Shown in pieces: positions 29,355-58,164 of a stretch of DNA of 64,000 nt. The notes beneath the pieces were generated by a model. That model saw nothing but the letters and a program-made list of their open reading frames with translations. It was not told where the DNA came from and did no database searches. Source of the DNA: Roseinatronobacter thiooxidans (GTDB lineage Bacteria > Pseudomonadota > Alphaproteobacteria > Rhodobacterales > Rhodobacteraceae); NCBI RefSeq assembly GCF_001870675.1, contig NZ_MEHT01000045.1, positions 186,001-250,000 of the forward strand, given 5' to 3'. The translations under genes were made by a program, and so were the position numbers. Each line of letters starts with the position of its first letter. Position 1 is the first letter of the stretch.

Positions 29355-29496
29355 GAACGCGCTGGCACAGCAAAACAGTTCACGTTCCGCAACCGCTTTG
29401 AGCGGCGACCCGACAGTTTGACCATTTGGTAAGCAATTTACAAATTACCTAGGGTAAACATGCGGTCAGCGCATAGCTGCATTGCAGCAATTTGCA

Positions 29497-29524
29497 TTGT
29501 GCAGATGCAGCGAAGTGTTATCTT
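29497..29524 (+). promoter_or_regulatory. Candidate promoter of the DUF1127-CcsR unit
   Basis: TTGTGC and TATCTT with a 16-base spacer lie about 50 bases before the gene start. In Rhodobacter the equivalent unit is driven by RpoHI/RpoHII; this element is only compatible with that and is not proven. Apart from this, 29355-29573 shows nothing. Confidence 0.25.
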
Positions 29525-29573: not shown

Positions 29574-29786
29574 ATGGCGCATATTGCTGAAAATCTAAGC
29601 GGTTCTATCGGAAATAACACGATCGGAACTCTTTTGGCGCGCTTGTCAAAGCGCTTTGGGCAACGCCGTGTGTATAATAAAACTCACGCAGAGCTAAGCC
29701 AGCTCAGCACGCGGGAACTGGATGATCTGGGTATCTCGCGGTCAATGATTTCGCGCCTCGCTTATGAGGCAGCATACGGGAAATAA
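29574..29786 (+). CDS. ccaF1: DUF1127 small Arg-rich protein, CcaF1-like
   Basis: A 70-residue protein with the C-terminal DUF1127 motif: ELSQLSTRELDDLGISRSMI, SRLAYEAAYGK, preceded by a basic stretch ARLSKRFGQRRVYNK. In Rhodobacter sphaeroides the DUF1127 protein CcaF1 is an RNA-binding protein co-transcribed with the CcsR sRNAs and involved in their maturation. The hairpin array starting 12 bases after this stop codon makes the same role very likely here. No clear Shine-Dalgarno is seen apart from AAAGGTAG. Confidence 0.85.
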   Translation: MAHIAENLSGSIGNNTIGTLLARLSKRFGQRRVYNKTHAELSQLSTRELDDLGISRSMISRLAYEAAYGK

Positions 29787-29797
29787 AGAGTTTCAGG

Positions 29798-30096
29798 CCC
29801 TTCCTCCTCCTCCCTGAAGGGTTTGATTATGACAGCGGCCCCTCCTCCTCCCTTGAGGTCGCTGTCACTAATTCCGGCAAGGGCTGCATAGCCCGGCACC
29901 GGAGACGACACGTCGCCCCTCTCCTCCTCCCTAGGGGTGCACGTTGGAACGATCTGGCCCTCCTCCTCCCTGGCCATATCGTTCCGAGAATACCCGGTCT
30001 TCGGACCGATCAAATTGCTTTGGCCCTCTCCTCCTCCCTAGGGCCTTGCAAAATTGGCGGCAGTCCCCTCCTCCTCCCTGGGACTGCCGCCTTTTT
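29798..30096 (+). ncRNA. ccsR: Array of six CcsR-like hairpins with CUCCUCC loops, ending in a terminator
   Basis: Six stem-loops each present CTCCTCC in the loop: 29798-29821, 29831-29866, 29910-29944, 29946-29985, 30015-30051 and 30056-30091. Stems differ in sequence (CCCTTC/GAAGGG; GACAGCG/CGCTGTC; CCCCT/AGGGG; GGAACGAT/ATCGTTCC; GGCCCT/AGGGCC; GGCGGCAGTCCC/GGGACTGCCGCC) yet loops are the same, so selection is on the loop. The last stem is followed by TTTTT and ends the unit. In R. sphaeroides four CcsR sRNAs, stress-induced and with anti-Shine-Dalgarno-like loops, are processed from the mRNA of the DUF1127 gene. Confidence 0.88.
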
Positions 30097-30122
30097 CATT
30101 TTTACATGCAGATTTTAGAGTG

Positions 30123-32504
30123 TCAGAACGGCACGTCATCGGCCTGTTCTGCGGGCACGATGAATTTCGCCACAATATGGCGCGGGCCTGATTTCTCGAA
30201 ATCGATGAACAGCTTGTCACCTTCTACCAAAGTGACGCGGCCATAGCCGAATTTCTGGTGAAAAACCCGTGCGCCCACCTCGAACGCTGGGGCAGATGTG
30301 CCGTCAATTACCATATTGCGCGCCTCGCGCGGCTGGCTAACGGGCCGCTCTGTCGCGGTTTGCAGCCGCCGCCAGCCGGGCGAATTATAGACATCAGCCC
30401 GCTGGGCGCGGTCTTCGATCGTGCTGGCGACATTTGGCATGCCGCCGCCATACAGGCCCGGTGGGGTCAGAATCTCGACATGCTCGCCCGGCAATTCATC
30501 GACAAAGCGCGAAGGCATTTGCGACTGCCACTGCCCGTAAACCCGCCTGTTGGCAGCGAAACTTATGGTGCACAGCTGCTCGGCGCGGGTGATGCCCACA
30601 TAGGCCAGTCGCCGCTCTTCCTCCAAGCCCTTAAGGCCCGATTCGTCCATTGACCGCTGCGAAGGGAACAGCCCGTCTTCCCAGCCCGGCAAAAACACCA
30701 CCGGAAATTCCAGCCCTTTGGCCCCGTGCAAGGTCATGATGCTGACCTTGGCTTCACTATCATCGCTGTCATTTTCCATAATCAACGAGATATGTTCCAA
30801 GAACCCTTGCAGGTTCTCAAAGGATTCCAGCGCCTTGATCAGTTCTTTCAGGTTCTCCAACCGCCCCGGTGCCTCTGGGGTTTTGTCGTTCAACCACATC
30901 TCGGTATAGCCCGAGTCTTCCAAAATCTGCTCGGCCAGTTCGATATGGTTTTGTGCACCCCCTTCGGGGCGGACAATCTCGATCAGGTCATCTTCCGCCT
31001 CGGCAAAGCCGGTTGTGCCAACGGCCCTGTGCCAGCGCGCGATATTCTCGACCAGTGCGCGCAATTGCGCCCCGCCCCTGCCCTTGATCTCGCCTGCTTC
31101 AACGGCCAGCGCGGCACCTTGAACCAGCGACACACCATTGGCGCGCGCAATGCGCTGGATGGTCTGTTGCGCCTTGTCGCCAAGCCCGCGTTTGGGGGTG
31201 TTGACGATGCGTTCAAAAGCCAGATCGTCGCCGGGGCTGACAGCCAAACGGAAATAGGCCATCGCATCGCGTATTTCCATGCGTTCATAGAAACGCGGCC
31301 CACCGATAACGCGGTAGGGCATGCCGATGGTCAGAAAGCGATCCTCGAACGCGCGCATCTGGTGGCTTGCGCGCACCAGAATTGCCATCTGGTTCAGGCT
31401 GAACGGGTTTAACCCCCGCGTGCCCCTGTTCAGGTCTTCAATCTGCTCGCCAATCCAGCGCGCTTCCTCCTCGCCATCCCAATGGCCGATCAGGCGCACC
31501 TTCTCGCCCGCGCGCGCCTCGGTCCAGAGTGTTTTGCCAAGGCGGTCTTCATTGCCTGCAATCACCTGCGACGCCGCCGCCAGAATATGCGGGGTAGAGC
31601 GGTAATTCTGTTCCAGCCGCACCACCACGGCACCCGGAAAATCGCGTTCAAACCGCAGGATATTGCCCACTTCGGCCCCGCGCCAGCCATAGATCGACTG
31701 GTCATCATCCCCTACACAACAGACATTCTTATGCCCTTCGGCCAGCAGGCGCAGCCACAGATATTGCGCCACATTGGTGTCCTGATACTCGTCCACCAGA
31801 ATATAGCGAAAGCGGTTCTGATAGCTTTGCAGCACATCGGGATGCGCCTGAAAGATGGTGACGCAATGCAGCAGCAAATCGCCAAAATCGCAGGCATTCA
31901 GGGTTTTCAGCCGCTCTTGATAGGCGGCATAAAACTCTGTCCCGCGGTTGTTAAAGGCGCTGGCCTCGGCGCTTGGCACCTGATCGGGCCGCCATGCGCG
32001 GTTCTTCCATTGGTCGATGATGCTTGCCAGCAGCCGCGCGGGCCAGCGCTTGTCGTCAATATTGGCGGCAACCAGCAATTGTTTAAGCAGGCGAAGCTGA
32101 TCATCTGTATCCAGAATGGTGAAATTCGACTTCAGGCCCACCAGTTCTGCATGGCGGCGCAAAAGTTTTGCGCTGATCGAATGGAAGGTGCCCAGCCAGC
32201 CCATCCCCTCAACCGCGTCGCCAAGATAGCCGCCCACGCGCAGTTTCATCTCGCGCGCGGCCTTGTTGGTGAAAGTCACCGCCAATATGCCCGAGGGGTG
32301 CGCCCGCCCGCTGTTCAGCAAATGCGCAATACGTGCTGTCAGCGCCTTGGTTTTGCCGGTGCCTGCGCCTGCAAGCATCAGTACCGGGCCATCCAGCGTT
32401 TCGACAGCTTGGTGCTGCGCAGGGTTCAGCCCGTCCAGATAGGGCGCGGGCCGCGCGGCCATCGCGCGGGCAGAGAGGGGAAGATCGGAATTGAAATCTG
32501 ACAT
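30123..32504 (-). CDS. uvrD: ATP-dependent DNA helicase UvrD/PcrA
   Basis: A 793-residue superfamily 1A helicase used in excision and mismatch repair. Motifs in order: AGAGTGKTKALTARI (Walker A, about residues 45-60), LVDEYQDTN (Walker B), GDDDQSIYGWRGAE, LEQNYRS, TLHGAKGLEFPVVFLPG, and AYVGITRA. The C-terminal region ends with a KxFGxGxV-type segment (FHQKFGYGRVTLVEG), typical of UvrD/PcrA. ATG 32504 (MSDFNSDLPLSARAM) is preferred; an open extension to 32921 would run antisense over the next gene. Confidence 0.96.
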   Translation of the reverse strand: MSDFNSDLPLSARAMAARPAPYLDGLNPAQHQAVETLDGPVLMLAGAGTGKTKALTARIAHLLNSGRAHPSGILAVTFTNKAAREMKLRVGGYLGDAVEGMGWLGTFHSISAKLLRRHAELVGLKSNFTILDTDDQLRLLKQLLVAANIDDKRWPARLLASIIDQWKNRAWRPDQVPSAEASAFNNRGTEFYAAYQERLKTLNACDFGDLLLHCVTIFQAHPDVLQSYQNRFRYILVDEYQDTNVAQYLWLRLLAEGHKNVCCVGDDDQSIYGWRGAEVGNILRFERDFPGAVVVRLEQNYRSTPHILAAASQVIAGNEDRLGKTLWTEARAGEKVRLIGHWDGEEEARWIGEQIEDLNRGTRGLNPFSLNQMAILVRASHQMRAFEDRFLTIGMPYRVIGGPRFYERMEIRDAMAYFRLAVSPGDDLAFERIVNTPKRGLGDKAQQTIQRIARANGVSLVQGAALAVEAGEIKGRGGAQLRALVENIARWHRAVGTTGFAEAEDDLIEIVRPEGGAQNHIELAEQILEDSGYTEMWLNDKTPEAPGRLENLKELIKALESFENLQGFLEHISLIMENDSDDSEAKVSIMTLHGAKGLEFPVVFLPGWEDGLFPSQRSMDESGLKGLEEERRLAYVGITRAEQLCTISFAANRRVYGQWQSQMPSRFVDELPGEHVEILTPPGLYGGGMPNVASTIEDRAQRADVYNSPGWRRLQTATERPVSQPREARNMVIDGTSAPAFEVGARVFHQKFGYGRVTLVEGDKLFIDFEKSGPRHIVAKFIVPAEQADDVPF

Positions 32505-32618
32505 GCGCTCGACTCTAGCGCGGGCAGCGGCGCAGGGGAAGCGGTGTTCTGCAAGTGTTCCACAAGAATTTGCGTGCAGCCATTGGCAAGCGCGCCGCGC
32601 CCGATATAGTCGCCCCTT

Positions 32619-33779
32619 ATGACACCTGACCTGCGCTACCCCGCCCTGTCTGACCTGAAAGCCGCCTGCAAAGGGCGGGTGCCGTGGTTTGTCTGGGAAT
32701 ATCTGGACAGCGCCACCGGCACGGAATCGGTGAAGCCGCGCAACCGTGCTGCGCTGGAACAGGTGCTGTTTCGCCCAGCCGTCTTGCGTGGCCCCATTGT
32801 GCCGCAGTTGGGCACGCGGTTTCTGGGGCAGGATTACGCCATGCCGGTTGGGGTTGCCCCTGTTGGCATGTCCGGCCTGATCTGGCCAGGGGCCGAAGCG
32901 GCACTGGCCCGAATGGCGCAAACCACCCGCCTGCCCTATTGCCTAAGCACAGTGGCCACCCGCCTGCCCGAAGAGATTGGGCCGATTGCAGGCGATATGG
33001 GCTGGTTCCAACTTTACCCGCCCAAAGACCCCTCGATTCGCGCCGATATTCTGGCCCGCGCACGCAAGGCGGGGTTTCGGGTGCTGGTGCTGACAGTCGA
33101 TCTGCCTGGCCCCTCGCGGCGCGAACGGCAGTTGCGCGCGCAGCTTGCCATTCCGCCAAAGCTGACGCCATCAATGTTGTGGCAAATCGCGCAGCGCCCT
33201 GCATGGGCGTTAGGTACATTGCGCCACGGCCAGCCGCGCTTGCGCCTGATGGAAGATTACCTGAAGCTTGACGGCAACGCCCCTTCAACTGCGCATCCCG
33301 GTTATCTGCTGCGCGCCGCCCCTGACTGGGACTATCTGCATGCTGTGCGCAAACTCTGGGATGGGCCGCTGGTGATAAAGGGCGTGATGGACGCGCAAGA
33401 TGCCCCCCGCCTGCGCGATGCGGGGGCAGATGCGATCTGGGTGTCCAACCATGGCGGGCGGCAATTCGATGGCGCGCCCGCCGCGCTGCATGCCCTGCGC
33501 GAGATGCGCGCGATTCTGGGCGCGGATATGCCGCTGATCTATGATGGCGGCATTGAATCGGGGCTGGATGTGCTGCGCGCGCTTGCCTTTGGGGCGGATT
33601 TCACCATGCTGGGCCGTGGCTGGCATTACGCGCTTGGGGCTTTGGGGGCGCAAGGGGCAGACCATCTGGCACAAATTTTGCGCGACGACCTTGCCAGCAA
33701 CATGATGCAGATGGGCCTCACACACGCGAAAGACGCATATTCGCAGCTTTGGACACACGGCCCCGCACCTGAATCCTAA
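32619..33779 (+). CDS. lldD: FMN-dependent alpha-hydroxy-acid dehydrogenase (L-lactate dehydrogenase type)
   Basis: A 386-residue TIM-barrel flavoprotein of the lactate/glycolate oxidase family. Conserved features are FVWEYLDSATGTE, MPVGVAPVGMSGLIWPGAE, FQLYPPKD, LTVDLPGPSRRERQ, the catalytic His in WVSNHGGRQFDGAPA and the FMN phosphate site DGGIESGLDVLRALAFGAD. Substrate could be lactate or another 2-hydroxy acid; the symbol is the family name. It stands alone between uvrD (divergent) and pyc. Confidence 0.88.
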   Translation: MTPDLRYPALSDLKAACKGRVPWFVWEYLDSATGTESVKPRNRAALEQVLFRPAVLRGPIVPQLGTRFLGQDYAMPVGVAPVGMSGLIWPGAEAALARMAQTTRLPYCLSTVATRLPEEIGPIAGDMGWFQLYPPKDPSIRADILARARKAGFRVLVLTVDLPGPSRRERQLRAQLAIPPKLTPSMLWQIAQRPAWALGTLRHGQPRLRLMEDYLKLDGNAPSTAHPGYLLRAAPDWDYLHAVRKLWDGPLVIKGVMDAQDAPRLRDAGADAIWVSNHGGRQFDGAPAALHALREMRAILGADMPLIYDGGIESGLDVLRALAFGADFTMLGRGWHYALGALGAQGADHLAQILRDDLASNMMQMGLTHAKDAYSQLWTHGPAPES

Positions 33780-56929: not shown

Positions 56930-57009
56930 TTGTGCCAGCACCGATTGCGCCGTAGACGCTGCCTTGGGACACCCTTCCCCAACGAAGGGCAAATATCTGG
57001 AAGGATACC
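56930..57009 (+). ncRNA. serC-type leader RNA (alphaproteobacterial serC motif)
   Basis: Alphaproteobacterial serC genes often carry a conserved 5' RNA (Rfam serC motif). Here a hairpin CCCTT-CCCCAACG-AAGGG (56972-56989) lies just before the Shine-Dalgarno GGAAGG (56999-57004). The CCTTCC at 56973-56978 is exactly complementary to GGAAGG, so the hairpin and a ribosome-site-blocking pairing are mutually exclusive. The mechanism is inference; the RNA family is recalled, not searched. Confidence 0.5.
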
Positions 57010-58164
57010 ATGTCGATACCCGCTCAACCGGCCAAGCGCCCGGCAAATCCGCGCTTTTCTTCTGGCCCCTGTGCCAAAATCCCCACATTTGAATTGGCAA
57101 AACTGGCTGATGCGCCCTTGGGCCGCTCGCACCGTGCCGCTGTGGGCAAAGCCAAGCTGAAAGCCGCGATTGACGGTACGCGCGACATCCTTGGCGTGCC
57201 TGCCGATCATCATATCGGCATCGTTCCCGCCTCTGACACTGGCGCAGTTGAAATGGCGATGTGGTCACTCTTGGGTGCGCGCAAGACCACGATGGTTGCA
57301 TGGGAAAGCTTTGGCGCAGGCTGGGTGACAGATGCGGTCAAGCAACTGAAACTGGATGCCGAGGTCAAGACCGCCGATTACGGCCAGATCGTCGATATGG
57401 CCAGCATCGATTATGACACAGATGTTGTGTTCACATGGAACGGCACCACCTCTGGCGTGCGCATGCCGCATGGGGACATGATCCCCGCCAACCGCGCAGG
57501 GCTGACCATTTGTGACGCCACATCGGCGGCCTTTGCGATGGACCTGCCTTGGGACAAGCTGGATGTCGTGACCTTCTCGTGGCAGAAAGTCATGGGCGGC
57601 GAGGCGGCGCATGGCATGCTGATCCTGTCCCCCCGCGCGGTCGAACGGCTGGAAAGCTACACGCCGCCATGGCCCATGCCCAAGATTTTCCGCATGACCA
57701 AGGGCGGCAAGCTGATTGACGGCATATTCAAGGGCGAGACGATCAACACCCCTTCCATGCTGGCGGTCGAAGATTACCTGCTGGCGCTGGATTGGGCGCG
57801 CGAGATTGGCGGCCTGCCTGCCCTGATCGCGCGGTGCGACGCCAATGCAGACGTCATCGCGCAGTTTTGCGCCGCGAATGACTGGATCGCCAATCTGGCC
57901 GAAGATCCTGCAACAGCCTCGACCACCAGTGTGTGCCTGAAATTCACCGATGCCAGCATTACCGATGGTGCGGCTTTCGCCAAAGCGGTTGCAAAGCGGC
58001 TGGAGAAAGAGGGCGTGGCGCTGGATATCGGGGCGTATCGTGACGCGCCTGCGGGCTTGCGCATCTGGTGTGGCGCGACGGTCCAGACCTCGGATATCGA
58101 GGCGCTAATGCCATGGCTGGACTGGGCCTATCATACAGAACGCGCGGCACTGGCCACCGGCTGA
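57010..58164 (+). CDS. serC: Phosphoserine aminotransferase
   Basis: SerC (384 residues) makes phosphoserine from phosphohydroxypyruvate with glutamate and PLP. It is the class V type found in alphaproteobacteria: [40 protein letters not shown] with the PLP lysine, and [20 protein letters not shown], ending with a RIWCGATV segment. It is preceded by the leader and GGAAGG, and serA follows 66 bases later. Confidence 0.95.

Follow-up and report, generated by a model that had tools for sequence, protein, structure and literature searches.

The first CcsR RNA, RS0680a, was described as two stem-loops carrying an anti-Shine-Dalgarno motif (PMC3927594). In Rhodobacter sphaeroides, four RNAs of this type, CcsR1 to CcsR4, are reported to derive from the 3' UTR of ccaF1, with both RNase E and CcaF1 taking part in their maturation (PMC8625941, PMC10253847), and to be transcribed together with ccaF1, with RNase E as the processing enzyme (PMC10253847, PMC8625941, PMC7866481). 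For DUF1127 proteins, a protein-binding role that competes with the RNA role has been described (PMC12501420). The same motif lies in three loops of the small RNA NfeR1, which according to PMC10746234 silences ntrB at the start of translation, an effect that a mutant of all three motifs does not have.

A locus of this kind lies in the window, the whole 64-kb stretch of DNA that was analysed. Its hairpin array is real, well conserved and of an already described kind. From 5' to 3' the locus consists of a conserved upstream block, a putative promoter, a DUF1127 gene and six motif hairpins arranged as three pairs, at 29793-29867, 29910-29986 and 30015-30091 (Table 1). The DUF1127 protein is 47% identical to the protein of locus L063.

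Table 1. Features of the DUF1127 gene and its hairpin array, in positions of the window
Feature	Position	Strand	Basis
Conserved block, 5' of the putative promoter	29440..29496	+	Alignment of 31 upstream regions of the genus
Putative promoter: TTG (29497-29499), 18 nt, TTATCTT (29518-29524)	29497..29524	+	Alignment of 31 upstream regions
DUF1127 gene, ccaF1-like, 70 aa	29574..29786	+	ORF; PF06568, 43.2 bits (cut-off 23.3)
Hairpin H1, unit 1, loop 29804-29814	29793..29826	+	Fold; helix 1 covaries
Hairpin H2, unit 1, loop 29842-29852	29830..29867	+	Fold; helix 2 covaries
Spacer hairpin S1, without CUCCUCC motif	29873..29903	+	Fold; helix 3 of the genus alignment
Hairpin H3, unit 2, loop 29921-29931	29910..29944	+	Fold; helix 4 covaries, 86.9% of cells paired
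Hairpin H4, unit 2, loop 29960-29970	29945..29986	+	Fold; helices 5 and 6 covary
Spacer hairpin S2, UUCG tetraloop, without motif	29995..30008	+	Fold; helix 7
Hairpin H5, unit 3, loop 30028-30038	30015..30051	+	Fold; helix 8
Hairpin H6, unit 3, loop 30068-30078, plus U run	30056..30096	+	Fold; helix 9, 100% paired

A preliminary description had proposed a DUF1127 gene followed by six CcsR-like hairpins that join different stems to one CTCCTCC(C) loop complementary to GGAGG, the last hairpin doubling as terminator. The gene is confirmed by its PF06568 match, and all six hairpins are present in 29793-30091. The motif is identical in all six, but the actual loop is longer, the same 11-nt sequence CTCCTCCTCCC (RNA CUCCUCCUCCC) each time, and the stems all differ. 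Complementarity of the loop to GGAGG holds as well. TTTTT directly follows the last hairpin (30056-30091), an arrangement that is terminator-like by eye, and H6 with its U run is likely the terminator. The pairing of the hairpins and the motif-less spacer hairpins had been missed.

CTCCTCC occurs 14 times in the window against 5.57 expected, a number reached in 0 of 100 shuffles, and 12 of the 14 fall in the six loops as two overlapping matches per loop. As a paired motif, CCTCCTCCCN{20,50}CCTCCTCCC has three matches in the 3.5-Mb genome, all in the array, and none for the reversed control; in congeners the reversed control has zero to two matches, since the motif reads almost alike in both directions. 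For 29780-30100 the folding energy is -139.3 kcal/mol (z -7.45), a value that none of 100 shuffles reaches, and when left arms were set against right arms in a 6 x 6 table, the cognate pair was strongest in every row and column. The calculated mean probability of being unpaired is 0.90-1.00 per loop, against 0.44 for the whole stretch, the lowest single base (0.27) lying in H2. The starts of successive hairpins are 38, 79, 39, 68 and 40 nt apart, which makes three pairs, with one motif-less hairpin in either gap between them. Open reading frames cross the array on both strands; a coding reading of these was set aside, and the covariation of nine helices was taken as the better account. A long reading frame on the opposite strand (30123-32921), UvrD/PcrA helicase-like by eye, runs towards the array. 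Elsewhere in the window, a serC leader (RF00517) was found at 56962-57013 (66.7 bits, cut-off 35). The second DUF1127 gene of the genome lies outside the window (G000:C45:293794-293904), and no CCTCCTCC loops were found in its 3-kb locus (L204).

Selection on the structure was assessed in an alignment of 31 arrays of the genus. The RNAalifold consensus recovers the six motif hairpins as well as S1 and S2; four outer pairs (21-24 with 365-368) were removed before counting. Changes on both sides of a pair occur in 38 of 60 pairs, compared with 23.0 (sd 2.2) in shuffles that ignore descent, none of the 500 having as many, and compensated pairs fall to 7-13 when the partner is slid by one to three columns. 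In the alignment 96.0% of cells are paired, a figure favoured by taking the structure from the same alignment. The spacer helices are less compensated than the motif stems: in S1, one of four pairs has changed on both sides, in 6 of 31 rows, and in S2, two of five pairs. Where the stems change, the loop is nearly invariant, in agreement with the earlier view that it is conserved over the stems. Nearly all loop differences between species amount to entire CUC triplets (CCTCCTCCC, or 3 or 6 nt more), with single exceptions in L019 and L156. Of the 92 units in 24 strictly paired arrays (window included; 81 arrays examined), 87 have their more stable hairpin in second place, a bias to which the last hairpin of the array, often a terminator, contributes.

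As one CcsR has two loops, the six loops of the window make three units. In a lenient search with the CcsR1 model (RF02791) there were three matches, one per hairpin pair and all below the cut-off of 65.3 bits: 29790-29870 (unit 1; 32.3 bits, E 8.2e-6), 29907-29987 (unit 2; a weak 21.2 bits, E 0.015 for 1 kb) and 30014-30095 (unit 3; 46.7 bits, E 4.5e-10). Rfam at gathering score gave no match at the array, and a whole-genome CcsR1 search gave two matches at E <= 1, with unit 2 absent and 8 of 14 control genomes also matched. Cereibacter johrii (L075) and C. azotoformans (L076), presumably close kin of R. sphaeroides, came from the scan for DUF1127 relatives and served as the positive control. 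Each has eight hairpins in four pairs. Unit 1 scores 106.2 in both and passes the cut-off; the others score 46.6, 43.6 and 39.4 in C. johrii and 54.1, 52.6 and 51.6 in C. azotoformans. One window unit is within the range of these sub-cut-off units (39.4-54.1 bits) and two are below it. The preliminary description had named, as evidence that would count against it, a covariance search that assigns these hairpins to something other than the CcsR family. All three matches do fall short of the cut-off, but at each Cereibacter locus three of the four units fall short as well, and therefore a low CcsR1 score does not by itself exclude CcsR. The array repeats units of two motif hairpins, as CcsR RNAs do; its loops combine a constant CCUCCUCCC motif, contained in 6 of 6, with divergent stems; and a short DUF1127 gene stands directly upstream. 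Since the strict cut-off was applied and not reached, we file the array as of the broad CcsR/cuckoo type, outside strict RF02791.

At least one motif pair was found in 35 of 37 genomes of the genus, own included, and 31 of the 37 have exactly six loops in three pairs of similar spacing (35 loci analysed). Among the rest, G007 and G017 have no match, G010 has four loops, G030 and G031 have two loops each at contig ends, and in G020 the fetched locus is a solo unit, the three array pairs being split over two contigs. Solo CcsR-like pairs elsewhere in the genome occur in 4 of 37 congeners (L159, L160, L161, L020). The 3-4 kb fetched at these loci contain no DUF1127 match. Three of the four fold into two hairpins; the exception, for the stretch that was folded, is L161. 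A motif pair is present in 86 of 120 family genomes (one per genus, own included), with a maximum of 15 pattern matches per genome, and CcsR1 matches at E <= 0.001 in 101 of the 120, 6 of them over the cut-off, as well as in 1 of 14 control genomes.

The preliminary description had also suggested a lineage-specific expansion, comparing six loops with four RNAs, and had called for hairpins to be counted across genomes. Four CcsRs carry eight loops; loops are not RNAs, and the copy-number argument is corrected accordingly. Hairpins were counted within 1500 nt, with gaps of at most 200 nt, at the 75 named DUF1127 loci that have 1000 nt or more of downstream sequence. The named loci, the best 80 among 536 relatives found with a Cereibacter-type query, are an uneven sample that does not include R. 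sphaeroides. The number ranges from 0 to 16 (median 8), with more than six hairpins at 55 loci, six at 6 and fewer at 14. Six hairpins are therefore no expansion, and the suggestion is further contradicted by the same six loops in most genomes of the genus. The nearest named locus by DNA, from the Roseinatronobacter MAG L153 (80% over 2.6 kb), has six loops too. Several named loci of Cypionkella, Pseudorhodobacter and Paracoccus (L094, L096, L100, L140-L142) carry 10-14 hairpins with a period of about 40 nt and no clear pairs, and may be differently processed. An array in a further genome (G082:C4:691717-692438) has seven motif pairs, five with identical matched sequence, as if the unit had recently been duplicated in tandem. 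What the analysis adds to the corrected copy number is a model for the whole genus that is backed by covariation and includes the conserved spacer hairpins, and the spread of hairpin counts over named loci.

The account that we regard as highly probable is that three sRNAs are cut from a ccaF1-CcsR operon and block ribosome-binding sites of the GGAGG type with their loops. One promoter, probably stress-responsive, would give a transcript encoding the small DUF1127 RNA-binding protein, followed by a 3' UTR with three two-hairpin CcsR-type sRNAs, and RNase E, probably aided by the DUF1127 protein, would cleave in the spacers between units. Each CUCCUCCUCCC loop would act as a copy of the anti-Shine-Dalgarno of 16S rRNA, but a longer one, and for that reason would pair more strongly than the ribosome: the predicted duplex of the loop with GGGAGGAGG reaches -18.2 kcal/mol, compared with -14.1 for the 16S tail. 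At ribosome-binding sites of the GGAGGAG type the loop would thus outbind the ribosome and translation of such mRNAs would be blocked, by extension from the silencing at translation start described for NfeR1. Anatomy, pairing, covariation and conservation of the array are read directly from the window and its relatives, and loop accessibility and duplex strength are calculated; co-transcription, cutting by RNase E, stress control and translational silencing would follow the pattern of the relatives.

The putative promoter is consistent with more than one form of control. TTG is found by eye in 31 of 31 upstream regions (window included) and TATCTT in most, the TTATCTT of the window reading CTATCTT in most congeners. 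In R. sphaeroides, promoters of RpoHI and RpoHII are described as having TTG as their conserved -35 element (PMC3441632), and from its sequence TTG-N18-TTATCTT could equally possibly be an RpoH or a sigma-70 promoter. The rpoH model TIGR02392 matched four genes, one of them over the cut-off, the others possibly being other sigma factors. The upstream block, strongly conserved in 31 congeners and containing GCATTGCAGCA-like repeats, points to a putative site of another regulator.

Other fates of the transcript can be envisaged. The six hairpins might stay joined or be released singly, with the spacer hairpins forming part of the products. S1 and S2 are conserved with some covariation and so seem selected, and the long runs of about 40-nt period without clear pairs would suit such processing, but the spacing in pairs that 31 of 37 genomes show and the weak/strong order inside pairs both match the product of two hairpins described in R. 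sphaeroides, and we consider this alternative improbable. A little less probable again is that the whole array serves as a sponge for DUF1127 or another RNA-binding protein, the loops binding the protein and the dose being set by how many hairpins there are, for which CsrB/RsmZ-type decoys are the comparison. A nearly invariant loop on changing stems, hairpin numbers ranging from 0 to 16 and the adjoining DUF1127 gene all fit a sponge, but the solo two-hairpin units of four congeners have no DUF1127 match nearby, conserved paired spacing and spacer hairpins fit cutting into units, and the same loop in NfeR1 is described as acting by mRNA pairing (PMC10746234). Finally, it is very improbable that the locus is an ar14/NfeR1-type sRNA, with three same-loop hairpins per RNA, instead of CcsR: RF02344 matches with raw scores above those of CcsR1 (52.6 and 46.8 bits) and a better E-value for unit 1 (3e-7 against 8.2e-6), but both matches are below the cut-off of 58.8, unit 3 favours CcsR1 (4.5e-10 against 1.6e-8), one match (29939-30095) bridges a spacer, both Cereibacter CcsR loci also give ar14 matches (34.1-46.0 bits), and the window has pairs, no triplets, with a DUF1127 gene in front.

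For the favoured account, blocking of ribosome-binding sites by three processed sRNAs, two leads bear on how a generic anti-Shine-Dalgarno-loop sRNA gains specificity and would make that question testable with reporters. The first is the spelling of the Shine-Dalgarno sequence. In the own genome there were 54 matches to GGAGGAGN{3,12}ATG, some of which overlap, and 10 to its reversal; for the control AAGGAGAN{3,12}ATG (AAGGAGA) the numbers were 65 and 8. Periplasmic solute-binding proteins made up 11 of 24 scanned ORFs of the GGAGGAG set (distinct ORFs of at least 60 aa from the first 30 listed, Pfam E 1e-3), all 11 also passing E 1e-6, and 0 of 26 of the control (first 30 listed, Pfam E 1e-5), which included 8 ribosomal proteins and 2 transporter membrane subunits (solute-binding, Fisher p 6.7e-5). 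In each of three other genomes 10 ORFs, picked by eye as likely genes, were scanned. The congener G005 gave 65 matches against 10 reversed and 22 ORFs, 3 of the 10 scanned being solute-binding; C. johrii gave 229 against 37 and 21 ORFs, with 2 of 10; and G128, in which neither the motif pattern nor the CcsR1 model found an array, gave 182 against 29 and 20 ORFs, with 2 of 10. The locus GC is 0.70 in C. johrii and 0.66 in G128, compared with 0.59 in the own genome, and more of the GGAGGAG matches there may therefore be due to chance. Rule-of-thumb signal-peptide calls were 14 of 25 in the own genome, 3 of 26 in its control, 3 of 21 in C. johrii, 2 of 20 in G128 and 7 of 22 in G005. GGAGGAG sites were also seen at a dehydrogenase E1 gene in G005 (L309) and at acetyl-CoA synthetase genes in G005 (L297) and C. 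johrii (L239). Most target candidates of NfeR1 are reported to encode ABC transport systems (PMC10746234). Because the other three genomes, among them G128 with no array detected, show the bias weakly, it is a lead and not a result; it may reflect chance, expression class or composition.

The second lead is self-sparing of ccaF1. GGAG occurs in 0 of 65 ccaF1 ribosome-binding sites (L075-L139) and GAGG in 49 of 65; L140-L154 are omitted from this count, as several matches there start inside the gene. Among background ORFs of the same loci, GGAG precedes the first ATG in 41 of 270 and any candidate ATG in 51 of 270; the 50-kb plasmid stretch L169 was left out as poor background. The difference between 0 of 65 and 41 of 270 has a Fisher p of 9.8e-5, for rows that are not independent by descent. 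Random 20-mers contain GGAG in 27 of 1300 cases (about 2%), so ccaF1 is at the random level and not clearly below it. Pairing energies were mixed, with a median of -6.0 for ccaF1 and, for the background, -3.3 with the longest start and -7.1 with the best start. The value for the window ccaF1 is -2.9, and 35% of 51 ORFs (longest start) or 4% (best start) are as weak or weaker. Taken together, the leads allow a speculative picture, which we think rather unlikely as a whole: the array would be a dose-tuned rival of the ribosomal anti-Shine-Dalgarno, its longer loops silencing GGAGGAG mRNAs rich in ABC/TRAP/TTT solute-binding proteins, with housekeeping mRNAs using AAGGAGA and ccaF1 having lost GGAG so that its protein escapes its own sRNAs. 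If this were true, the spelling of the Shine-Dalgarno sequence would be a regulatory code and the number of units across Rhodobacteraceae its dose.

Among known systems, the actinobacterial 6C RNA (RF01066) has two hairpins with C-rich loops, like the units of the window, where its two matches score 29.4 and 25.9 bits, below its cut-off of 47. ar14/NfeR1 (SmelA075, RF02344) has the same anti-Shine-Dalgarno loop motif and the same presumed target contact; it differs in having three hairpins per RNA and, as described in PMC10746234, its own promoter, and the array is below the RF02344 cut-off. Closer are CcsR1-4 and ccaF1 (RSP_6037) of R. sphaeroides (RF02791), where a DUF1127 gene is likewise followed by two-hairpin CCUCCUCCC-loop units with a terminator at the end and similar unit spacing, as judged on C. 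johrii and C. azotoformans. The window differs from these in having three units instead of four, scores of 21-47 bits and, in all six hairpins, a loop longer than the 9-nt motif. We know of no essential difference between the array and the loci of the cuckoo RNA family and CIN1. As described by Reinkensmeier and Giegerich (2015; via PMC10253847, PMC10746234), those loci share with the window a constant loop on changing stems, a varying number of hairpins and short DUF1127 proteins.
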